Shown here piece by piece: positions 1-10,970 of a stretch of 11,344 bases of DNA. Position 1 is the first letter of the stretch; each line of letters begins with the position of its first letter. The notes beneath the pieces were generated by a model. The model saw nothing but the letters and a program-made list of their open reading frames with translations. It was not told the DNA's origin and did no database searches. Source of the stretch: an uncultured Chlorobiaceae bacterium (GTDB lineage Bacteria; Bacteroidota; Chlorobiia; Chlorobiales; Chlorobiaceae); the NCBI GenBank assembly GCA_903838095.1, contig CAILXE010000169.1, positions 1-11,344 of the forward strand, read 5' to 3'. The position numbers and the translations under genes are program-made.

Positions 1-128
1 ACCGGGAAGAGAATAAGTAATTGGAAAGAAGGTTAAGGACGGTTCAACGGTTGATGGTTCACTAACCTTGAACCTTGAACCTTGAACCGTCCTTAACCTT
101 CTTTCCTGTTACTTATTCTCTTCCCGGT
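1..128. repeat. 47-bp inverted repeat at the end of the cytochrome operon
   Basis: Bases 1-47 are the reverse complement of bases 82-128 with only two mismatches (21-22 against 107-108), separated by a 34-base loop. The right arm contains the last codons and stop of the 7-haem cytochrome gene (109-843), so the end of that mRNA would fold into a very long stem. The loop and inner arms hold GGTTNNN heptamers, including CCTTGAA repeated three times at about 67-87. The left arm starts at base 1 and may continue outside the window. It could act as a bidirectional transcription end, or be the centre of an inverted duplication or a palindromic assembly error. Confidence 0.9.
3..20 (+). other. mirrored C-terminal codons; possible end of a converging gene copy
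   Basis: In the plus frame starting at base 3 the left arm reads R-E-E-N-K-stop. These are exactly the last five residues and stop of the minus-strand 7-haem cytochrome that ends at 109. A second, convergent copy of that gene may therefore end here, with its body left of the window. Equally, the codons may be only the passive mirror of a hairpin. Only 18 bases are visible, so no product can be assigned. Confidence 0.3.
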
Positions 129-843
129 TATATTTCTGTGGCCGGTGACAGCCGGGAGCACAGCTGCCGCCTTTTTCTGAGATCTGAAAATTCATATCCA
201 TCTGCCAGTTGCCAAATCTGATAGTGCTGGCCATGAGTTTCGGATTTTCCGAACCATGAACATCGTGACAGGTTTTACAGTTTCTCCCTCGTTTTTCTTT
301 ATTCACATGAAGGTAGTGCAGGTTGCGGATGCCGTCTCTGAACCCGGTTGCAAATGCCGTTTCAGGATACATCATTAATTCAGGTTTGTGGCAGCTGAAA
401 CAGAGGCCATACTGGTCTTTGGTGTAATCTACGTAGAATTGGGTGGGGTGGTTTTTATGCAGTAAGCCTGTTCCGGGAAGAGCGTGAGGATTATGGCAGG
501 CAGCACATTTGTTTTCAGCCACAGGCGCATGAGGATAGGTATGCGCCTGTGGCACCTCTTCATGACACTCCAGGCACATTTTGGGAGCTAATTCCAAGCG
601 AACCTCAATCTGGTCATGATGGTCATAATCACCTTTATGGCAGTCTGTGCAAGCGAACTCTTTGGGGTGAACAGGGAATCCTTTTTGCAGCTTGCTATGG
701 CAGCCTTCGGTTATACAGGTGGGGGCAGTGTTGGCCTGGTGGGGAAACAAACAGATGAATAGTATTAAGAGGAGGTTTGCGGTAAGCGGTTTGCGGTTTA
801 TTGTTTTCACTTCGATATTCGACATTCGATATTTAACATGCAT
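109..843 (-). CDS. seven-haem c-type cytochrome, doubled-CXXCH type
   Basis: A 244-residue exported cytochrome, presumably periplasmic or outer-membrane associated, for electron transfer. Haem motifs: CX4CH at 43-49, CXXCH at 65, 90, 113, 148 and 189, and CX3CH at 228-233. A signal peptide precedes residue 40 (hydrophobic stretch about 23-33). From about residue 146 to 240 it matches the 13-haem protein of the same operon (CF-CH, FRxG, NLHxxHV, KGRxCKxCH, FGxW, GGSCxPGCHR), so the two are paralogous there. It is the last gene of the minus-strand operon, 4 bases after the 5-haem lipoprotein gene. There is no Shine-Dalgarno, and Met7 (base 825) is an alternative start. Heptamer repeats encode part of the N-terminus. 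The terminal electron acceptor or partner is not evident. Confidence 0.9.
   Translation of the reverse strand: MHVKYRMSNIEVKTINRKPLTANLLLILFICLFPHQANTAPTCITEGCHSKLQKGFPVHPKEFACTDCHKGDYDHHDQIEVRLELAPKMCLECHEEVPQAHTYPHAPVAENKCAACHNPHALPGTGLLHKNHPTQFYVDYTKDQYGLCFSCHKPELMMYPETAFATGFRDGIRNLHYLHVNKEKRGRNCKTCHDVHGSENPKLMASTIRFGNWQMDMNFQISEKGGSCAPGCHRPQKYNREENK
774..832. repeat. two heptamer arrays inside the signal-peptide codons
   Basis: 774-801 is four exact 7-base units (GGTTTGC, GGTAAGC, GGTTTGC, GGTTTAT). After a 10-base break, 812-832 is three units (TCGATAT, TCGACAT, TCGATAT). Both lie in the 5' end of the 7-haem cytochrome gene and contribute residues before its hydrophobic core. Three heptamers make seven codons, so such arrays can stay open in a reading frame. 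The GGTTTNN unit recurs at 1459-1493 and the TTCGAY-type unit near 6782-6816. Confidence 0.85.
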
Positions 844-847
844 AATT

Positions 848-1450
848 TTATTTCAAGAAGTATTGCCTGCTCCCACCATGGGCATCATGACAATTAACAC
901 ATTCCATATTATGTTCCTTTACGGCATTGTGCATTTCCAGGGCCAGTCGTTTTTCCTGATGGCATTTATTGCAGATGCCGCTGACACTCTCACGAAGCAG
1001 AGCTTTATTCTTTGATTCATGGGGAAGGTGACAGGCAAGACAGTCGCGTACTGCAATTGGACCATGGATGAAATCCCCCTTGTTTTTTACAAAATCGATG
1101 TGACATATTTCGCAAAGCTGGTCAGCCGGAGCAATAAGCAAATTGGTTTTTTTAAAGTTATGGCATCCCTGACAGTTTTTGTCAGCAAAAGGAGGATGGC
1201 TTGATCCTGCGGTCACCACCTTTTTCTCCTCAATGGAGCTGGCGCTTGCCTCAGCCAGTCTGTCCTGATAATAGGTGTTGAACAGATCATCCATATTGTC
1301 TTTGCAGAGTTGGGCAAGGGGAGGCAGATCAGGGACTCCGTCAAAGAAATCAGTCTTCCGTTTGTGTCTGACCAGGGGATCATCAGAGCAGCCTGTGAAC
1401 AGGGTCAGCACAAGAGTGAGTGAGAGTATGGGATGAAGCTTTGGCTGCAT
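848..1450 (-). CDS. five-haem c-type cytochrome lipoprotein
   Basis: A 200-residue cytochrome with a good lipobox, F18-T-G-C21, followed by Ser at +2. This predicts lipid attachment at Cys21 and sorting to the outer membrane. Residues 22-90 are haem-free and contain K-R-K-T-D-F-F-D-G-V-P, a motif I recall from other multihaem lipoproteins but could not check. CXXCH motifs begin at 93, 113, 137, 160 and 184. It lies 18 bases after the 13-haem gene and 4 bases before the 7-haem gene in one operon. The upstream spacer is heptamer repeat with no Shine-Dalgarno, so translation may be coupled to the preceding gene. A likely role is an outer-membrane-anchored electron carrier that hands electrons to, or receives them from, the larger cytochromes. 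Confidence 0.9.
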   Translation of the reverse strand: MQPKLHPILSLTLVLTLFTGCSDDPLVRHKRKTDFFDGVPDLPPLAQLCKDNMDDLFNTYYQDRLAEASASSIEEKKVVTAGSSHPPFADKNCQGCHNFKKTNLLIAPADQLCEICHIDFVKNKGDFIHGPIAVRDCLACHLPHESKNKALLRESVSGICNKCHQEKRLALEMHNAVKEHNMECVNCHDAHGGSRQYFLK

Positions 1451-3017: not shown

Positions 3018-3911
3018 TTATTTTCTGGCTTTCACGAAAATATTTGTGGAGACACCTGTGGCGTCAAGATTATGGGCCTGTCCATGACATTCTCCACATG
3101 TGCCGTATCGTGAGTGGATTTTTTCAGCATGGGGGAGACCATGGCATTTTTGACATTCCGGGATGTTGCCATGAGTATCCGCATGACAGCGGATGCAGGA
3201 AACTGTCCTGTGTTTGCTGGTATTGGTGGTCATTTGCCCGTACTCAGCCTTGTGACAGGAACCGCAATCTTCTGAAAGAATAGAGTCCCCATAGCTTATT
3301 TCCAATGGCATATGTGCCTTATGGCATACCGTACAGCTGTCATCTTTCATTGTATCTGAGTGTGACCGATGACAATTACGACAGGGTTGAATTTGTCCAT
3401 GATAGTTATGGCAGGCAGTACATGCCAGTTTTGTATGGATACTCGGATACTTTTGCAACTGTTCCATCTGTTCGCTATGACAGCTCAGGCACGGCATGGT
3501 GATGTTACGGGTCAGACGAATCTCAAGGGGCGCATGGGGGTCAACATGGCAACTCATACAGTTTTCCAGTTTGAAGTGATCCTTGTCGTCCTTGTGACAC
3601 TGGCTGCAGAGTGGAATGATCCCGATATCTTCAGGTGGGTGACCCTTATGGCAATCTCCACAGAGAGTCCGGTGGGCCTTACCCTTGATATTAAGAGTAA
3701 ACAGAATTTCTTCATGACACTTATGGCAGTCACTCGCATCAACTGTGGCTTTAATATCTTTTTTGTTCTGGCTCGCCTCTGCCTGAAGGTGGGTAATTTG
3801 CACACAAAACAGACAGAGGCAAACAAGACACGTTGTAAAGCTGAAAACTTTTCCCACAATCGGCTTAGGGATTACCTTGGGCGATTGATTGCGGGGAGGA
3901 ACAGGGGCCAT
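3018..3911 (-). CDS. dodecahaem (12-haem) c-type cytochrome, soluble
   Basis: A 297-residue exported cytochrome with twelve CXXCH motifs, beginning at residues 62, 84, 102, 118, 141, 164, 177, 193, 216, 239, 253 and 272. It aligns end to end with the 12-haem protein at 5756-6625 (shared GDCHxGHPPE, PLCSQCH, NIT-CL-CH, CTxCH and GECH/GDCH endings), so they are full-length paralogues. The ATG at 3911 overlaps the preceding gene by 40 bases. A GTG at 3857, codon 19 and 15 bases past that gene's stop, would give a more usual signal peptide (hydrophobic about 23-40). Neither start has a clear Shine-Dalgarno. It is probably a periplasmic electron carrier between inner-membrane donors and the other cytochromes. 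Confidence 0.9.
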   Translation of the reverse strand: MAPVPPRNQSPKVIPKPIVGKVFSFTTCLVCLCLFCVQITHLQAEASQNKKDIKATVDASDCHKCHEEILFTLNIKGKAHRTLCGDCHKGHPPEDIGIIPLCSQCHKDDKDHFKLENCMSCHVDPHAPLEIRLTRNITMPCLSCHSEQMEQLQKYPSIHTKLACTACHNYHGQIQPCRNCHRSHSDTMKDDSCTVCHKAHMPLEISYGDSILSEDCGSCHKAEYGQMTTNTSKHRTVSCIRCHADTHGNIPECQKCHGLPHAEKIHSRYGTCGECHGQAHNLDATGVSTNIFVKARK

Positions 3912-4960
3912 GGAAATTTTTTCAGGGTGACAATGGTTACAGCGTTATGCGTATATGTAGCAAGACCCACCGAATAATCTCCTCCCCATTCCATTGTATG
4001 TTCATACTCGTCCCATGAGTCGTGAAAAATTATCTCATTATTTGTTGAAGTGTTGTAGCCAATTCCCACAACAATATGACCAGACAGGTGCAGCATCACA
4101 GGACGACCGGCATTAATTTCTGCTTTGTACTGATCATAAGTAAAACCATAATACTTCAAAGGGTTAATATATTGGTTGTACATGGTTGAAACTTTGTAGC
4201 CTCTGGACTCAAAAAAGAGTTTAAGTCCATACCCTGCGTCATACTGCGCGTACCCCTGCTGTTCCAGATAGGGTGCTGTCACAGGATCACCAGCTACACT
4301 AAAGAGAAAGGTGGCAGCGCCATCTTTGTTGATATTTTCTGGAAATATTGTTGGGTGCTCAGTTGATGAATTCGGAAACCATTTACTTGCTTTCATGTAG
4401 TCTCCGACACACTCACCAGGAGTGTGTTCCGTCCACCCATTGACAACATAAGGATCTGGGCCACTGTCACCTTGATGAACATAATAGTCATCGACATGGC
4501 CACGGGTAGCGCGTCCGTCCACACCTTGTCTGGTGGCACTTAAAGGACATTCATTTCCTCCCTTATCGCTGGCTCCCCAGCTTGTATTTGTCAAAGGCAT
4601 AACACCGCCATTTGTCGGCCCTGTGTACATGTTCGCAAAACCTGTCCTGTCATAGTATCCGGCAATCATGGCGCCGGCAGTTGCGGCTGGTCCGTAAGAC
4701 CATATATAGGCCGGAACATTTGAAAGCTTCACATCACCTGTTTTGGGAACAGCGCTTACTAAACCTTTGGCCGCCAGTTTTTGTTGGGGAGGAGCGGGAG
4801 GACTGTTGGCTATGACTATGTCAAGGCTGGTCCCGTCTTTAAGAACAACGGTGTGAGTTGAAGAATACGGATTGGCAAAAACAGTCTGAGATGAAGCGAG
4901 AAGCAGCAGGGACAGGACGATGGTGTTAGTATTTCGTTGAAACAGTGTAGGTTTTTTCAT
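3872..4960 (-). CDS. secreted C39-like papain-fold protein lacking the catalytic Cys
   Basis: A 362-residue protein with a signal peptide (hydrophobic 13-29, cleavage after V-F-A at 29). Residues 82-110 (VPAYIWSYG-PAATAGAMIAGYYDR) match the active-site helix of the peptidase C39-like family, where Y-G-Cys is expected; here the Cys position is Pro91 (codon CCA). The later His295 in SGHIVVGIGY and Asp314 in FHDSWDEY are kept, as is family text such as MYTGPTNGGVMPL and RGHVDD. It is therefore a probable pseudo-peptidase, perhaps binding or chaperoning a substrate rather than cutting it. It opens the cytochrome operon with a good Shine-Dalgarno (AGGAG, 8 bases before ATG). Its 3' end overlaps the annotated start of the 12-haem gene. 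Confidence 0.85.
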   Translation of the reverse strand: MKKPTLFQRNTNTIVLSLLLLASSQTVFANPYSSTHTVVLKDGTSLDIVIANSPPAPPQQKLAAKGLVSAVPKTGDVKLSNVPAYIWSYGPAATAGAMIAGYYDRTGFANMYTGPTNGGVMPLTNTSWGASDKGGNECPLSATRQGVDGRATRGHVDDYYVHQGDSGPDPYVVNGWTEHTPGECVGDYMKASKWFPNSSTEHPTIFPENINKDGAATFLFSVAGDPVTAPYLEQQGYAQYDAGYGLKLFFESRGYKVSTMYNQYINPLKYYGFTYDQYKAEINAGRPVMLHLSGHIVVGIGYNTSTNNEIIFHDSWDEYEHTMEWGGDYSVGLATYTHNAVTIVTLKKFPWPLFLPAINRPR

Positions 4961-4990
4961 TGATTTACTCCTGTTATCTTAAATTGATAG

Positions 4991-5045
4991 ATTTTGGAAT
5001 GTAACTATTCGGTTTTGCACTCTTGTTTCGTATTTTGAATGTAAC
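4991..5045. promoter_or_regulatory. direct repeat upstream of the minus-strand operon
   Basis: ATTTTGGAATGTAAC (4991-5005) and ATTTTGAATGTAAC (5032-5045) differ by one base and are about 41 bases, close to four helical turns, apart. They lie 31-85 bases upstream of the first gene's start codon, where a regulator of the cytochrome operon could bind. No clear -35/-10 pair was identified beside them. A two-copy AT-rich repeat can also arise by chance. Confidence 0.35.
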
Positions 5046-5075
5046 ATTTTCTGTTCTGCTCAGGTAGTTAGATTT

Positions 5076-5105
5076 TTGACAGGCCATGTCTTTTGAGCTG
5101 ATAAC
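5076..5105 (+). promoter_or_regulatory. possible sigma70-type promoter
   Basis: Perfect TTGACA at 5076-5081, an 18-base spacer and GATAAC (5100-5105, four of six matches to TATAAT). It is followed at 5118 by a perfect AGGAGG. It points towards the dodecahaem gene at 5756, about 650 bases on. The weak -10 and long spacer keep confidence low. Confidence 0.3.
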
Positions 5106-5127
5106 GAATATTCCCTCAGGAGGAAGA

Positions 5128-5178
5128 GTGAAAAAGGTTTTGTTTTCTTCTTTTTCTGTCTATTTTAAGTGGCATTAG
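5128..5178 (+). CDS. 16-codon micro-ORF with a perfect Shine-Dalgarno
   Basis: AGGAGG at 5118-5123 is followed, 4 bases later, by GTG and a short frame reading MKKVLFSSFSVYFKWH, then TAG. The Lys-Lys plus hydrophobic/serine start resembles the front of a signal peptide. It may be the stump of a lost exported gene or a leader peptide. It is the best ribosome-binding site in the window with almost nothing behind it. No family is recognisable and translation is unproven. Confidence 0.25.
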   Translation: MKKVLFSSFSVYFKWH

Positions 5179-5569
5179 TTATTGCATCACCGAAGTGACG
5201 GGTAGAGATTGAATCCTGTTCAAGCAAATGTAAATATTTTACTGAAACTTTAACCTAAGAGGTTGGTGATTTTCCATCTATTAATATGATAATTACACCA
5301 CATTGAGAGTATATGCAATATGTGTTGCCTGTTTGCCCCATGTGGGTCAAACGGCCCAACCGTTGTTGCTGTTCAAAGTGGTTTGTATTGAATCATGATT
5401 GTCTTTTTTGTCTTTTCGGTAAGAACAAATCTATGCAAAGGTTCCAGGGGAATGGTATTGTACTGAATCTGCAAAGTATCAAGGTACGCCTTAAAGCGTT
5501 TGAGGATGGAAGGTGTTTTTTTGCTAAGGGATTCGGAAATTGCTGAATTGCCAGATATTGGCCACAGGA

Positions 5570-5638
5570 GTAGGTCGGACTTCAGTCCGACAGCGGGGGT
5601 TAATACTACCGCCGTTATCGGACTGAAGTCCGACCTAC
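5570..5638. repeat. REP-pair (REPIN-like) palindrome
   Basis: A perfect 21-bp inverted repeat (5570-5590 with 5618-5638) surrounds a 27-base loop with an inner GCGG/CCGC pair. Each arm is itself a small hairpin: GTCGGACTTCAGTCCGAC at 5574-5591 and its near mirror at 5618-5633. This two-level design is that of paired REP elements mobilised by RAYT (TnpA-REP) transposases. No RAYT gene is in the window. It lies 118 bases upstream of the dodecahaem gene and could affect its mRNA. Confidence 0.8.
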
Positions 5639-5755
5639 ATGTTCAAAAACGGTAAATTTGTAATTTCTATATCCCTAACGTTTGGGGTGGAAAAGGGATG
5701 TCAGATTTTCTAAAAATATATTTATGGAAGGGATAATACATTTTAAGGAGAGAAA

Positions 5756-6625
5756 ATGAAGAAAGGAATGAGCCCGGCAGTGTATTTTAAAAGTTCACTC
5801 ATGTTTGCAGCAGCAGGAGCGCTAATGTTCAGCCTGTTATGCTGTTCAAAAGTTACAGATTCATCATCAAAAAATCAACCGGCAACAGCGCCAAACGTGA
5901 TGGTGGCTGCTCCGGTAGACAGTGGGATTTTATCCAACTCAGATTGTGCGAAATGCCATACTGCAGCCACTCAAGGAATCAGGGATCATGGCGGGTTGCA
6001 TAAAACTAAATTAACCTGTCAGGATTGTCACGAAGGGCATCCACCTGAGGTTAAGGAAATTATTCCATTATGTAGTCAGTGTCATGAAGGAAAACCGCAT
6101 TACAAGCTTGAGGGTTGTCTCAGTTGCCATTCAAACCCGCATACCCCGAAGAACATCACATTAGCTAAAAACATCACGGATGCCTGTCTGACCTGTCATA
6201 AGGAACAAAAACCTCAGCTGGTACAATTTAAAAGTGCGCATAGTCAACTTGCTTGTACATCCTGTCACCAGAAAACCCATGGTATGGTGCCGAGTTGTTT
6301 GAGCTGTCATAAGGAAGGTCATTCACCGGAAATGGTTCAGGCTGATTGTGCCAACTGTCATAAGGCCCATAAACCATTGAAGGTTGCTTATGCCGACAGC
6401 CTTGCTTCAAAGCAGTGTGCTTCCTGCCATGATGTTGCTTATACTCAGTTAATGGCAAGCCCTGCAAAGCATCACAATGTAAGTTGTGTGACCTGCCATA
6501 AGTCTGAGCACAAAATGATTCCAAAATGCGAGGATTGTCATCATACCCCTCATCCTGCCGCCATCACAGCTAAATTTAAAGGCTGTGGCGACTGTCATAA
6601 TATTGCCCATGATTTGAATAAATAA
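5756..6625 (+). CDS. dodecahaem (12-haem) c-type cytochrome, probably membrane-anchored
   Basis: A 289-residue cytochrome with twelve CXXCH motifs, at residues 64, 88, 106, 121, 144, 167, 181, 198, 221, 244, 258 and 277. It is a full-length paralogue of the minus-strand 12-haem protein (3018-3911). The N-terminus is a signal sequence ending L27-L-C-C30-S-K and then a Ser/Pro/Ala-rich linker (31-55). This suggests a lipoprotein, although the residue before either Cys is not the usual Gly/Ala/Ser. The start is supported by AAGGAGAG six to eight bases upstream. The gene heads a plus-strand operon with the DUF4350-like gene. Probable role: a periplasmic electron shuttle tethered to a membrane, complementing the soluble paralogue. 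Confidence 0.92.
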   Translation: MKKGMSPAVYFKSSLMFAAAGALMFSLLCCSKVTDSSSKNQPATAPNVMVAAPVDSGILSNSDCAKCHTAATQGIRDHGGLHKTKLTCQDCHEGHPPEVKEIIPLCSQCHEGKPHYKLEGCLSCHSNPHTPKNITLAKNITDACLTCHKEQKPQLVQFKSAHSQLACTSCHQKTHGMVPSCLSCHKEGHSPEMVQADCANCHKAHKPLKVAYADSLASKQCASCHDVAYTQLMASPAKHHNVSCVTCHKSEHKMIPKCEDCHHTPHPAAITAKFKGCGDCHNIAHDLNK

Positions 6626-6638
6626 GGGCCTGAAAAAA

Positions 6639-6690
6639 GAAAGGGTAACGGGCGGTGGCATCAGTGATGTTTGCCGCCCATTCCCCTTTC
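6639..6690 (+). other. stable intergenic stem-loop after the dodecahaem gene
   Basis: GAAAGGG (6639-6645) pairs with CCCTTTC (6684-6690), GGGCGG (6650-6655) with CCGCCC (6674-6679), and CATC (6659-6662) with GATG (6666-6669). It sits 14 bases after the cytochrome stop. On the plus strand no U-run follows, so it is more likely to protect the cytochrome mRNA or reduce read-through than to be a simple terminator. On the minus strand a T-run does follow, but no minus gene lies there to be terminated. Confidence 0.6.
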
Positions 6691-6714
6691 ATGAGCTTGA
6701 GATCGAGGAACATT

Positions 6715-6837
6715 ATGAAAAATCATAAAAGAAGAGCGAAGAGATCTCTTTATCTGTGGGTACTGGTTTGGGGCATTTTAACTTCGACATTTATTCTTCA
6801 ATATTCGACATTCAATATTCCCTGGAGGACTGTATGA
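6715..6837 (+). CDS. 40-residue basic membrane peptide, hypothetical
   Basis: ATG at 6715 has GAGGA five bases upstream. The frame reads a basic head (KNHKRRAKR), a hydrophobic stretch (about residues 12-29, SLYLWVLVWGILTSTFIL) and a tail coded by heptamer repeats, then stops at TGA. The stop overlaps the next gene's ATG as ATGA (6834-6837), which suggests translational coupling. The layout is that of a one-pass small membrane protein, or a dispensable coupling leader for the DUF4350-like gene. No family is recognised, and part of the frame may be open only because heptamer repeats lack stops. Confidence 0.4.
   Translation: MKNHKRRAKRSLYLWVLVWGILTSTFILQYSTFNIPWRTV
6782..6816. repeat. degenerate 7-base repeat before the DUF4350-like gene
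   Basis: Five units in strict 7-base period: CTTCGAC, ATTTATT, CTTCAAT, ATTCGAC and ATTCAAT. They end 8 bases before a strong GGAGG (6824-6828) that serves the start at 6834. The unit is of the same kind as TCGATAT/TCGACAT at 812-832, so the element recurs in distant spacers of this locus. Confidence 0.75.
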
Positions 6838-7622
6838 AATTGAACCATATAATTATATTTTTCTTTTGTCTTGCTTTGTCGTTTGTAAAAGACGCATCAG
6901 CTGCAGCATCTCCCGTTGTTCTTTTTGACGAGGCACATACGCAGCAGTTTCTTGTCGGCAAACAGGGAGATCTGGACCTCTCCGGGTTAGCTAAACTGTT
7001 TTCGGAGCAGGGCGCAGAAATAAGGACGGGAACAGCCTTGATTTCCAAAAACAGTCTGCTCGGTGTCGATGCTTTGATTGTTTCCGGTGCATTTACACCA
7101 TTTGTGGATTCTGAGATTGAGGCGATTCTTGCATTCCTTGCACGTGGTGGAAAAGTGGCTCTTATGACCCATATTCCCTCACCATATATGTCCCTGGCTA
7201 CGCGATTGGGGGTTTCATTTTCCAATGGTGTGGTGTTGGAGCAGGAGAATCTTGTTGATTCCAATGCTCAGAATTTCATGGTGAAAGATTTCACTGTTCA
7301 TCCACTGATGACCGGGATAAGCAGTTTTACTGCTTATGGGTGTTGGGCCCTTCTGGAGAGAAGTGAAACGGTTGTGAGTATTGCCAGGACAAGTCCTCGC
7401 GCCTGGGTGGATTTGAACAAGGATGGAAAACTGAGCGAAAGAGATGCCATGCAGGCTTTTTCAGTGATTTTGGCTGGAAAAGTTGGACAGGGCAATTTTG
7501 TGATTTTTGGAGATGATGCCATCTTTCAGAATCGTTTCCTGAAAGATGGGAATTATGCCTTGGCAAAGAATTTGGCGATCTGGTTTTGTGCACGGAAAGA
7601 GCCGAGGTTGGTGCAGCTTTAG
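6834..7622 (+). CDS. secreted DUF4350/GldG-like protein with an EF-hand-like loop
   Basis: A 262-residue protein with a signal peptide (hydrophobic 6-17, cleavage near A-S-A at 21-24). VVLFDEAHTQQF, the DALIVSGAFTPF strand, FLARGGKVALMTH and GNFVIFGDDAIFQNRF are typical of the DUF4350/ABC-auxiliary (GldG-like) class-I glutamine-amidotransferase-like fold, which usually binds rather than catalyses. Residues 193-204, DLNKDGKLSERD, fit the canonical 12-residue EF-hand calcium loop. ATG at 6834 is chosen because GGAGG lies five bases upstream; an in-frame ATG at 6756 has no such site and would block the signal peptide. It is co-directional with the dodecahaem gene. Its job with cytochromes is unknown; calcium-dependent binding is only an inference. 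Confidence 0.8.
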   Translation: MKLNHIIIFFFCLALSFVKDASAAASPVVLFDEAHTQQFLVGKQGDLDLSGLAKLFSEQGAEIRTGTALISKNSLLGVDALIVSGAFTPFVDSEIEAILAFLARGGKVALMTHIPSPYMSLATRLGVSFSNGVVLEQENLVDSNAQNFMVKDFTVHPLMTGISSFTAYGCWALLERSETVVSIARTSPRAWVDLNKDGKLSERDAMQAFSVILAGKVGQGNFVIFGDDAIFQNRFLKDGNYALAKNLAIWFCARKEPRLVQL

Positions 7623-7674
7623 GCGCCCTTCAAGTGTTTCCCCAACAAGAATGACTATGTGGATAGCCTAAATG

Positions 7675-7754: not shown

Positions 7755-8174
7755 CTATATCTTTCTATGGCAACCCATACATAACAGTTTTACTGTAGAA
7801 CGGCGCAAATAGTGACTATGAGAAGCTAACGTTGCTTTTCCCTTGTCGTGGTAAAAGTGGCAGGTAATGCAGTTTATTTGTTTTTTATTGTCCAACACCA
7901 GGTCGTTGGGAACAGCCATGCTGGGCGTCATGTTGATCGGATGAATGTAGCCGTCTTTCGTTTTGGCATCGTCCTTGCAGGGATAGTTCTTATGGCATGT
8001 CAGGCAGATTGAGGGAATGTCACTGTAAAAGGACAATGTGACCCTTTCAAGGGGCAATTTGACGTGACAGTCAAGACAACGGATTCCGGCGTCGTCATGG
8101 GGTGTTGCTGAAGCTGCCAGGCCATTGTGAGGCAAGAGAAGCAGAAGAGTGAAAAGGTAACGAAATTGCTTCAT
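7755..8174 (-). CDS. tetrahaem c-type cytochrome paired with a HAMP protein
   Basis: A 139-residue exported cytochrome with a signal peptide (hydrophobic 7-14, cleavage near G-L-A-A at 18-21) and CXXCH motifs at 33, 57, 102 and 132. It shares PHD...C-CH...CxTCH...G(Y/F)(I/M)HP...VPxD-L...CxTCHxxHD...LRR...CxxCH with the first 130 residues of the 7-haem protein at 8925-9740, so it is a shorter paralogue. Its ATG overlaps the stop of the HAMP gene upstream (ATGA, 8171-8174), strong evidence of coupled translation and joint function. It is probably a periplasmic electron carrier or redox-sensing partner of that membrane protein. Confidence 0.9.
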   Translation of the reverse strand: MKQFRYLFTLLLLLPHNGLAASATPHDDAGIRCLDCHVKLPLERVTLSFYSDIPSICLTCHKNYPCKDDAKTKDGYIHPINMTPSMAVPNDLVLDNKKQINCITCHFYHDKGKATLASHSHYLRRSTVKLLCMGCHRKI

Positions 8175-8740
8175 AGTTTCAGCAACTCCAACTCTTGTTT
8201 CATTGTTTTCAGGCGCCTATGACATTCTTCTGTCAGGGGAGTGCTGTCCAGTGCATCTCCTTCACCAAGTCTGCTGAGATTTTCACTGTTGATTTGTATT
8301 ACCTGAATTTTTGTTTTTAATGCTGTTCTCATTTCATCAAGTGTAAGGGCAAAGGTCTGAAGCTCATCCTTTTCCCTTAAGGCGACAGCATCTCTCAGGT
8401 TTCCTCCTTTGATTTTCAGGATAGCTCCTCTTAATTTGATCAACGGTCCTTCAATTCTCGAAAATATTTTCTTAAGTGTGTAGCTGAATAATAAAATAAC
8501 CACAATGACAGCAATGCCTGTGGTCAATGCCATTTCCTTGAAAAGCAGGTCGGCCAGGGTTGTTTCGGGTAATCTCATGGTGTACAGGGTTTTCTCGAGT
8601 TTTGTCTGGGCAAGGGAGACAAAAATGAAAACTGCTGCCACGGCAGAAATCAGGGAGGCGAGTGCAAAAGCGGCCATGAATTTAGACTGGGCCTCTTTGT
8701 CGATAAAGTAGTTTCTGCGTTTATAATGTTGTTGTGCCAT
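8171..8740 (-). CDS. two-TM HAMP-domain protein without output domain
   Basis: A 189-residue inner-membrane protein with a basic cytoplasmic head (YKRRNYF), TM1 about 21-43, an extracytoplasmic loop of only about 27 residues, TM2 about 71-91 and a HAMP domain about 92-143 (conserved Pro99, helix 2 with EKDELQTFALTLDEM). A short helical tail follows. There is no histidine kinase, GGDEF or methyl-accepting signalling domain; the family's usual HAMP proteins carry one. A clear AGGAGA precedes the ATG. It overlaps the tetrahaem cytochrome gene by 4 bases. It may relay a haem redox state to an unidentified cytoplasmic partner, or simply be a dimeric coiled anchor for the cytochrome. Confidence 0.85.
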   Translation of the reverse strand: MAQQHYKRRNYFIDKEAQSKFMAAFALASLISAVAAVFIFVSLAQTKLEKTLYTMRLPETTLADLLFKEMALTTGIAVIVVILLFSYTLKKIFSRIEGPLIKLRGAILKIKGGNLRDAVALREKDELQTFALTLDEMRTALKTKIQVIQINSENLSRLGEGDALDSTPLTEECHRRLKTMKQELELLKL

Positions 8741-8924
8741 GATTATCTCCTAATAAAGAGGGCAAACACGAATTTTGATATTCGAATTTATGTATTCTTA
8801 GAGCGTGTCCGTAAATAATATTTTCAGGGATCGCACCGGATTTTGAGACGAATTTTGTTGGGACGATTGACTAAAACCGCCGGCATTAGTCCTTAATCCA
8901 TGAGGTTTTTTACGATTCCATTGA

Positions 8925-9740
8925 TCACATCATATGACAGGCAAAACAGAGCGCACTGCGATTGTCGCTCATAACTAGGCGATCTTGGCCCTTGTTCATA
9001 TAAGGGTTGTGGCAGGAGCCACATCCTATTTGACCGTCAAAAAAGTTGATCCGTTTATCAACTTCATTGATGGGGCGTAAATCTGATTTCCGACCTGATC
9101 TCATTCGAGCCTGCTCATAATTAATGCCGATGGGATGTTTTTTGCCAAGTGTTGGACCGGAAAAACTGCTGCTGTGATCCCAGTTGCCCGTATTTATGGC
9201 GACTGAAGATCCCTGAGTACCATCGTGACAGCTGATACAGTTTTTTGATATGGAGTCGATGCTGCCGCTCTTTCCGTTTTCGGAGGCAATGTGACTTGCA
9301 GTAAAATGGGCGACAGCCAGAGTCGACGCATGGCTGCTTCCTATGCTGCCATCACTGTGGCAAATCACACAAAAAACTTGCGGAGGCTCTTGCCGGCGCA
9401 GGAATTTGGGGGACTTGTTGTAATCAGCATGAACATCATGGCAGGTATTGCAGGTTAATAATCCGGTTCTGGAGAGGGGCATATCTCTCGGGACAGTAAC
9501 TTTCTCAGGTATTATATCAACAGGATGCATAAATCCACTTTCAAATATCTTCTGATGACAAGTTTTACATGTCAAAGATCCGCTTCCGACAGTCAAGAAT
9601 CCCGGTGAATTTTGATCCCCCGTGTGGCAGAGTATGCATTCAGATTGAGAAAAATCATGGGGAACCGGCCCGAGACAATAAGTCGTCAGAGCAGTGAAAA
9701 GACAAAATAATAAACCCCATATAATGGTAGAATGTTTCAT
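8925..9740 (-). CDS. seven-haem c-type cytochrome paired with a HAMP protein
   Basis: A 271-residue exported cytochrome with CXXCH at 35, 58, 97, 124, 168, 240 and 265. The hydrophobic signal is at about 6-20. Residues 25-130 match the tetrahaem protein at 7755-8174. A second part (130-271) adds three haems with long gaps (172 to 240) and KHPIGINYEQA and GCGSCHNPY signatures seen in other multihaem families. It lies 134 bases after the HAMP gene at 9875-10423 and 184 bases before the next HAMP gene, so order and orientation repeat. There is no good Shine-Dalgarno before ATG 9740. The protein ends directly after the last haem (CFACHMM), which is unusually short but not truncated by any visible lesion. 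Confidence 0.9.
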   Translation of the reverse strand: MKHSTIIWGLLFCLFTALTTYCLGPVPHDFSQSECILCHTGDQNSPGFLTVGSGSLTCKTCHQKIFESGFMHPVDIIPEKVTVPRDMPLSRTGLLTCNTCHDVHADYNKSPKFLRRQEPPQVFCVICHSDGSIGSSHASTLAVAHFTASHIASENGKSGSIDSISKNCISCHDGTQGSSVAINTGNWDHSSSFSGPTLGKKHPIGINYEQARMRSGRKSDLRPINEVDKRINFFDGQIGCGSCHNPYMNKGQDRLVMSDNRSALCFACHMM

Positions 9741-9855
9741 GGATAATACTGTTAGGAACGATGATTTTGCAAAAAAAATATAATTTACACCCTAAGGGGT
9801 ATTTCCTGTGGGGACGCATCAATGATGGCCGGTTAAATCTTCTTTTTTGAAATCT

Positions 9856-9872
9856 GCGCTGATCGACAGCGC
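9856..9872 (-). other. small GC stem-loop between HAMP gene and seven-haem gene
   Basis: GCGCTG (9856-9861) pairs with CAGCGC (9867-9872) around a 5-base loop, 3 bases after the HAMP gene's stop at 9875. No clear U-run follows in the minus-strand RNA, so it may only attenuate or stabilise. It could lower expression of the downstream cytochrome relative to the HAMP protein. Confidence 0.35.
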
Positions 9873-9874
9873 CA

Positions 9875-10423
9875 TCATAATTGGAATTGTTCGGTTAGTT
9901 GATGAATTTCCTTTGCCTTCTTTTTTATTTTGGAAAGGGTTTCCTCGTCTTTGTCCATCTCGGCAGTCAAGGTTTCCAAGGTTTCCACTTCTTTTTTGAT
10001 TTCTTGGAATTTGTTGTGATACACATTTACCAGTTTGTTCAGTTCTTCGGCCACAGGGTGTATGACATCTTTATCTCTTAAACCGACCCTTTCATTCAGG
10101 TGGCCCTCTGTTACTTTTTTTACGAATTGGGTCAGCCGATAGAGGGGGCCTGCTATCCGGTGTGAATAGAGCATGGCCAGAATAAGAATGCCGATGATCA
10201 TAAAAAAGAAGGTGATTCCGAAAATTGTCAAGGCCTTGTAGAGAATATTCTGTCTCAGGCCTGTGAGCATTTTGATACCCACAGCGTAGGTGGGGCCAAT
10301 GTCCTGTTGCATGGTGAAGTACAGGACGGCAAGGGTCGCTACAAGGCCTGTGATACAGGATATACTCAGGCCAAAGAGTACTCGGCCCTTAAACCAGGAT
10401 TTTTTGGTGTAAATATCTGTCAT
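9875..10423 (-). CDS. two-TM HAMP-domain protein with coiled-coil tail, no output domain
   Basis: A 182-residue membrane protein: TM1 about 15-37, loop about 38-65, TM2 about 66-86, HAMP about 87-136 (SHRIAGPLYRLTQFVKKVTEG, then DKDVIHPVAEELNKL). A long Lys/Glu coiled coil runs from about 137 to 180. As in the second HAMP protein of this locus, kinase, cyclase and chemotaxis domains are absent and the periplasmic loop is too short to be a normal sensor domain. AGGAGA lies seven bases before ATG 10423. It is the first gene of the HAMP-cytochrome-HAMP-cytochrome run. A relay or scaffold role is inferred, not shown. Confidence 0.85.
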   Translation of the reverse strand: MTDIYTKKSWFKGRVLFGLSISCITGLVATLAVLYFTMQQDIGPTYAVGIKMLTGLRQNILYKALTIFGITFFFMIIGILILAMLYSHRIAGPLYRLTQFVKKVTEGHLNERVGLRDKDVIHPVAEELNKLVNVYHNKFQEIKKEVETLETLTAEMDKDEETLSKIKKKAKEIHQLTEQFQL

Positions 10424-10909: not shown

Positions 10910-10956
10910 TGGTGGGCCGTCCCGGGATCGAACCGGGGACCTGTTGATTAAGAGTC
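10910..10956 (-). pseudogene. 3' half of tRNA-Lys(CTT), island attachment-site copy
   Basis: On the minus strand it reads anticodon loop CTCTTAA, variable AGGTC, T-stem and loop CCCGG-TTCGATC-CCGGG, acceptor ACGGCCC, then A and an encoded CCA. This is a normal tRNA-Lys 3' half. The D-arm, the 5' acceptor strand and most of the 5' anticodon stem are missing: homology stops at 10956, where ACAGA stands in place of the expected GTTGA. Tyrosine integrases often cross over in anticodon loops, and an integrase gene begins 168 bases to the right. The intact tRNA should lie at the other end of the island, right of the window. Confidence 0.88.
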
Positions 10957-10970
10957 TGTGTCTTTAGCAA

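Follow-up and report, generated by a model that had tools for sequence, protein, structure and literature searches.

A recurrent gene triad of two short HAMP proteins and a seven-haem cytochrome as a candidate membrane complex

The question raised by this locus is what two short HAMP membrane proteins, neither of which carries an output domain, are doing next to multihaem c-type cytochromes. The stretch of DNA analyzed (11,344 nt, hereafter the window) contains on its minus strand a block of four genes, in the order HAMP1, seven-haem cytochrome, HAMP2, four-haem cytochrome:

9875-10423, minus strand: HAMP1, 182 aa; hydrophobic (transmembrane) segments at residues 15-33 and 67-85, a divergent HAMP domain and a coil reaching the C-terminus, without output domain
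8925-9740, minus strand: seven-haem c-type cytochrome, 271 aa; anchor-like N-terminal helix, seven CXXCH motifs and seven conserved further histidines
8171-8740, minus strand: HAMP2, 189 aa; N-terminal KRRNYFIDK, hydrophobic (transmembrane) segments at residues 23-41 and 71-89, HAMP domain at about 99-142 and a short coil, without output domain
7755-8174, minus strand: four-haem c-type cytochrome, 139 aa; its family is related to the N-terminal half of the seven-haem protein; accessory

The four-gene block and its surroundings

The CXXCH motifs lie at residues 35, 58, 97, 124, 168, 240 and 265 of the seven-haem protein and at residues 33, 57, 102 and 132 of the four-haem protein; HAMP2 ends, and the four-haem gene begins, within a shared ATGA at 8174-8171. 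When HAMP1 is used as a query it finds HAMP2 (E 6e-7, 25% identity), the two being homologues. The cytochromes are related as well: the seven-haem profile matches the four-haem genes beside triads in L131, L133, L134, L135 and L137 with E values between 6e-22 and 4e-17; no match extends beyond profile positions 1-135. By coordinates, the TAG inside this match in L133 and L134 is the four-haem gene's own stop. Gene order, strand, haem counts, the ATGA overlap and both homologies had been proposed in a first-pass annotation, and all of them agree with these data.

Further multihaem cytochrome genes are present in the window:

3018-3911, minus strand: 12-haem cytochrome, 297 aa; its homologue opens the run into HAMP1 in L027, L030, L032 and L201
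1469-3010, minus strand: 11-haem cytochrome, 513 aa; same cassette
848-1450, minus strand: 5-haem cytochrome, 200 aa; N-terminus lipoprotein-like by eye; same cassette
109-843, minus strand: 5-haem cytochrome, 244 aa; same cassette
5756-6625, plus (opposite) strand: second 12-haem cytochrome, 289 aa; related to the 12-haem homologues of the relatives

In the four relatives named, a single run comprises the genes for the 12-haem, 11-haem and two 5-haem cytochromes, followed by HAMP1, the seven-haem gene, HAMP2 and the four-haem gene. In the window, the 12-, 11-, 5- and 5-haem block is located on the far side of the four-haem gene, about 3.8 kb off, and the second 12-haem gene, a DUF4350 gene and a Peptidase_C39_2-like gene lie between them. 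The window cassette hence consists of the relatives' parts in a rearranged order. The loci nearest in sequence, L025 and L026, carry the HAMP1-to-four-haem block without the 12-, 11-, 5- and 5-haem set in the stretch examined. A 54-base repeat is present in four copies at 1510-1724, near the 3′ end of the 11-haem gene; the protein repeats DKGNKGDVVVQPKLEKL.

At about 10922-10970, the minus strand looks by eye like a tRNA 3′ half with a terminal CCA. As ARAGORN called no tRNA there, the sequence is perhaps an attachment-site remnant. No strong relatives of HAMP2 were found in the sample of the assembly's own phylum, and relatives with 76-84% identity occur in Desulfobulbaceae MAGs; the contig (G000:C169) may therefore be mis-binned or acquired.

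Recurrence of the triad

A scan of named genome contigs for the HAMP2 family yielded 66 loci, 15 of which contain the cytochrome arrangement. In 13 of these the seven-haem gene lies between two HAMP genes (HAMP1 of L062 is cut by the contig end); the remaining two, L028 and L033, start too close to a contig end for the triad to be judged and keep the four-haem gene. The incomplete locus L089 groups in the HAMP2 clade of the tree described below.

An alignment of the seven-haem protein was then used to search 690 genomes. The phylum of G309 (the L030 genome, with the title Desulfurivibrio) contributed 395 of these, and that of G310 (the L086 genome, with the title Nitrospiraceae) 295. Matches with E≤1e-30 were obtained in at least 23 and at least 43 genomes, respectively, both numbers being lower bounds because few candidates were scored per genome. 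A short HAMP gene is found on both sides of the seven-haem gene in 22/23 matches from the phylum of G309 and in 42/49 from that of G310, that is, in 64/72 overall, including L187, whose downstream HAMP is a frame of only 63 aa with a stop inside the match. Three further matches are cut by a contig end, and no HAMP was found beside the seven-haem gene in L130, L173, L246 (a fragment) and L247. As the arrangement recurs in two phyla, chance is excluded. The genome-neighbourhood survey called for by the first-pass annotation has thus revealed a recurrent pairing; neither of the two results named there as adverse, a lack of such pairing or HAMP proteins that are fragments of chemoreceptors (MCPs) or kinases, was encountered.

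HAMP1 and the seven-haem gene overlap by 4 nt in 28/72 cases. The four-haem gene follows the triad in 17/72 (4 in the phylum of G309 and 13 in that of G310) and is accessory to it. The conserved unit is the triad HAMP1-seven-haem-HAMP2. As a control, 32 triad-bearing loci were inspected: HAMP genes occur on both sides of 30/32 seven-haem genes and of 0/86 other genes with at least four CXXCH motifs, a comparison that tests specificity for the seven-haem gene and not frequency, because the loci were picked for holding triads. A HAMP gene on one side was found for 25 of these 86 genes, and all 61 short HAMP genes in the 32 loci adjoin a seven-haem gene.

In a tree labelled by gene position only, all upstream (68/68) and all downstream (64/64) HAMP proteins fall into separate clades with a support of 0.99, and an earlier tree, labelled by profile and including 48 cytochrome-free relatives, gave the same split. 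It follows that the HAMP duplication predates the spread of the triad, and HAMP1 and HAMP2 are old, non-interchangeable paralogues. The block had initially been regarded as a duplicated HAMP-cytochrome unit. The homology on which that view was based holds; the two equal pairs do not, the four-haem gene being an occasional companion and the HAMP genes belonging to two old, separate clades. Such position-tied clades would fit a heterodimer around one asymmetric partner. HAMP domains act as dimers, described as homodimers (PMC4359373), and the simplest arrangement predicted here is one HAMP1 and one HAMP2 around one asymmetric cytochrome. The recurrence of the triad points to an undescribed membrane complex that may link the cell interior with electron flow on the outer side of the inner membrane.

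The short HAMP proteins and the cytochromes

Judged from the window proteins alone, the HAMP assignment is weak: HAMP2 scores 17.4 bits against PF00672 (cut-off 25), and HAMP1 gives no Pfam HAMP match at E≤1, chemoreceptor and kinase models matching its HAMP stretch with E values of 6e-6 and weaker. It is clear at the family level, as PF00672 is matched at E≤0.01 by 30/65 relatives of HAMP1 and 38/68 relatives of HAMP2. The HAMP profiles also match the HAMP stretches of solved chemoreceptors, of the sensory rhodopsin transducer and of Af1503; the HAMP1 profile matches unrelated coiled coils too, through its C-terminal coil. Two hydrophobic peaks are present in 65/65 HAMP1 and 67/68 HAMP2 proteins, with a median of 30 residues between the 19-residue peak windows, and both families have the form of a two-transmembrane HAMP protein with a short outside loop. 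Both window proteins stop 40-50 residues past the HAMP domain, and Pfam detects in them no chemoreceptor signalling or kinase domain after it, in agreement with the lack of an output domain noted in the first-pass annotation. Among the matches listed, those to HAMP2 with E≤1e-25 are mostly frames of about 190-260 aa (exceptions: 289, 329, 356 and 365 aa), and weaker ones occur in long frames, such as one of 909 aa (G732:C55, E 1.5e-22), which by size are ordinary-length receptors. Among the matches listed, the frames holding triad HAMP domains are thus mostly not long enough to include an output domain. Small HAMP proteins of this kind are labelled methyl-accepting chemotaxis protein by a database source.

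Relatives of the triad HAMP proteins share, by eye, an RR.YFI.K start and an LR..D motif. Where no cytochrome is present, short HAMP genes are found between genes for SurA-like and HExxH proteins, after PDZ or DUF3047 genes, or beside genes for pilin-like proteins, the family names having been tested on one or two examples each. The operon comprising a SurA_N-like anchored protein, a short HAMP protein and a HExxH protein is recurrent (L049, L254-L257, L259-L263, L267, L268 and others); in L049 it adjoins, by eye, chain-length and polysaccharide-type genes. In L047 (9965-11149) and L056 (665-1840) one polypeptide combines the short HAMP with the HExxH protein, elsewhere the product of the neighbouring gene; a hydrophobic segment separates the two parts, and a SurA-like lipoprotein gene precedes the fusion gene. 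Short HAMP genes, single or paired, adjoin pilin-like genes in L249, L250, L264, L265 and L266 (N_methyl was tested in L250; the rest were assigned by eye). Together, these settings and the L047/L056 fusion suggest a class of HAMP-only membrane proteins which work with separate outside partners.

With regard to the cytochromes, both window proteins score above the cut-off (20.6 bits) of the doubled-CXXCH family PF09699, the seven-haem protein with 56.8 and the four-haem protein with 22.1 bits. Alignment of 74 seven-haem proteins shows six histidines outside CXXCH conserved in 74/74 (window residues 28, 72, 104, 137, 145 and 202) and a seventh (189) in 70/74; no other conserved histidine outside CXXCH was found in this alignment. 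Seven haems and seven such histidines lead us to predict bis-His ligation throughout, from which we infer a protein suited to electron transfer rather than to catalysis or gas binding. The N-terminal helix (residues 2-22) is predicted confidently (pLDDT about 92 over residues 1-20) and no clear cleavage site follows it by eye, and hence it is probably a membrane anchor. The C-terminal part is homologous to chain 9yuq_N (E 2.6e-12). In the four-haem family, three further histidines are conserved for four haems, the fourth distal histidine is not, and an extra cysteine (Cys66) occurs in 11/12 members; the fourth haem may be completed by another protein.

A membrane-anchored multihaem protein beside a transmembrane bundle could act as a quinol dehydrogenase, oxidising quinol in place of a NapC/NrfH- or CbcL-type entry. 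The predicted anchor would suit this role, inspection by eye of a set of triad stretches brought up no other quinol enzyme, and NrfH (2j7a_C) is matched weakly at profile positions 27-74 (E 1.3e-5). However, the seven-haem protein gives no match to NapC/NirT (PF03264) at E≤1, the four-haem protein reaches 15.5 bits against a cut-off of 24.1, and all haems of the seven-haem protein are predicted to be bis-His; we consider this role unlikely.

Possible roles of the triad

We tentatively favour, at somewhat below an even chance, an inner-membrane complex of HAMP1, the seven-haem cytochrome and HAMP2 in which the HAMP pair is a transmembrane relay; complex, heterodimer and relay are all inferred from genetics only. 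A HAMP1:HAMP2 heterodimer would contribute four transmembrane helices and, on the cytoplasmic side, the HAMP bundle together with a short coil, and would hold the N-terminally anchored cytochrome on the periplasmic face, from where the latter would relay electrons onward. The redox or binding state of the cytochrome would shift the transmembrane/HAMP pair or, in the reverse direction, a cytoplasmic partner would shift the cytochrome. The HAMP pair would thus be a relay whose exocytoplasmic part is supplied in trans. We count in favour the conservation of the triad, its specificity for the seven-haem gene, the position-tied clades, the conserved histidines, the anchor helix, the matches of HAMP2-type profiles to Af1503 and HtrII, and the HAMP-HExxH fusions. 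We count against it the seven-haem genes without a HAMP found beside them and the broken downstream HAMP of L187, the description of HAMP dimers as homodimers cited above, and the SurA-like, PDZ, DUF3047 and pilin-like partners of short HAMP proteins, which are not obviously sensors.

The genes around the triads bear on this relay too. Among long stretches, other genes with at least four haems lie near the triad in 9/10 from the phylum of G309 (all but L197) and, the four-haem gene aside, in 1/10 from the phylum of G310 (L211, in which four consecutive 6-haem cytochrome genes, encoding 263-292 aa, lie at 4225-7660 close to the triad). This contrast has exceptions: neighbours of this kind occur in L035, L042 and L086, which bear Nitrospirota-type titles, and are absent from L060, L062, L025 and L026. 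The rich clusters include NHL-repeat proteins, a 5-haem protein with a lipoprotein-like start and an 11-haem cytochrome, as well as large secreted proteins that look by eye like outer-membrane barrels (L195, L198; that of L198 without Pfam match); no barrel-like gene was noticed by eye in the window.

The multihaem surroundings in the phylum of G309 count against the relay, as a purely structural role would suffice for them. The HAMP pair would then be a dimerising membrane clamp that fixes the seven-haem protein and orients it to serve an electron conduit as its inner-membrane relay; the HAMP fold would be kept for packing only, and no signal would be passed. This passive scaffold is a close rival, to which we give a lower but still substantial probability: many of the triads set amid multihaem genes have NHL and 5-, 11- or 12-haem genes beside them, a linked output is absent, and several unrelated exported partners of short HAMP proteins are what a general anchor would have. 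On the other hand, the seven-haem protein seemingly has an N-terminal anchor of its own, 9/10 long stretches from the phylum of G310 lack another multihaem gene nearby (L035, L042 and L086 do have one), and two non-interchangeable HAMP types with conserved cytoplasmic parts exceed the needs of an anchor.

Two-component genes are not enriched near triads, accounting for 9/174 genes within three genes of them and 15/259 farther away (p=0.83), and none was found in 19/31 loci. No cytoplasmic partner having been found in this way, the result again weighs against the relay. It also bears on a classical split sensor, with the seven-haem protein as sensor and a histidine kinase or response regulator encoded nearby as the target of the HAMP pair. 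Such genes do lie near some triads (for instance L060, L062, L086, L202 and L203), but in L060, L062 and L086 they are on the opposite strand, and this possibility appears very improbable. The first-pass suggestion that the cytochrome may be the sensor and an unlinked protein the output gained no support from these counts, and an anchoring or electron-relay role would suit the multihaem surroundings too.

For the relay that we favour, separate features of its design have precedents. In the sensory rhodopsin II-HtrII system, a separate membrane-bound sensor works with a two-transmembrane HAMP protein with very small outside loops; HtrII itself is homodimeric and possesses a chemoreceptor output. 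Its chain 2f95_B matches the HAMP2-type profile over the transmembrane and HAMP parts (E 1.1e-6), and the triad would resemble this system in combining a separate membrane sensor with a short-loop HAMP protein. It differs in that its HAMP proteins lack an output and are of two types, and in that their conserved neighbour is a multihaem cytochrome, the seven-haem protein, and not a rhodopsin. A HAMP protein lacking the usual input and output domains, Af1503 of Archaeoglobus, is called non-signalling (PMC3585426). It shares with the triad HAMP proteins the lack of an output domain, and is matched by their profile. We know of no cytochrome partner or paired second HAMP for Af1503. The LapD/LapG system uses a HAMP domain to connect the cytoplasm with a trans-bound periplasmic protein, and inside-out action is possible there (PMC4359373); unlike the triad HAMP proteins, LapD carries a periplasmic domain as well as GGDEF-EAL domains. 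A membrane partner in trans, a HAMP without output and HAMP control of a periplasmic protein thus each have a precedent.

On the cytochrome side, the multihaem surroundings of several triads resemble the gene clusters of the OetABI porin-cytochrome conduit (PMC10553843) and of the SEEP-SRB1 cytochrome operon, which includes a beta-propeller protein (PMC5539420). The word HAMP is absent from the main texts of both papers, and the triad, in contrast to these clusters, is also found with no other multihaem gene around it in many stretches of another phylum. Extracytoplasmic sensing through a c-type haem has been described for a Cache sensor domain with a c-type haem motif; sensor and receptor are apparently one protein there (PMC12889525), whereas the triad has a separate seven-haem cytochrome. 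The combination of a short HAMP protein with a multihaem cytochrome was not found among the listed results of literature searches in a largely open-access collection.

More broadly, short HAMP-only proteins could be widespread output-less transmembrane relays, each with a separate and swappable exocytoplasmic partner. The triad would be their redox version, an asymmetric heterodimeric receptor with a seven-haem wire as its input, which would read or gate inner-membrane electron flow mechanically across the membrane; we regard this as a conjecture worth entertaining, with the chances leaning against it. To our knowledge, how bacteria that trade electrons with solids or partner cells sense current at the inner membrane is an open question. 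If the proposal is true, this conserved set of a multihaem cytochrome and two HAMP proteins without output would offer a concrete candidate for such sensing in two phyla, and a function would be assigned to small HAMP proteins that now bear the label of methyl-accepting chemotaxis protein.
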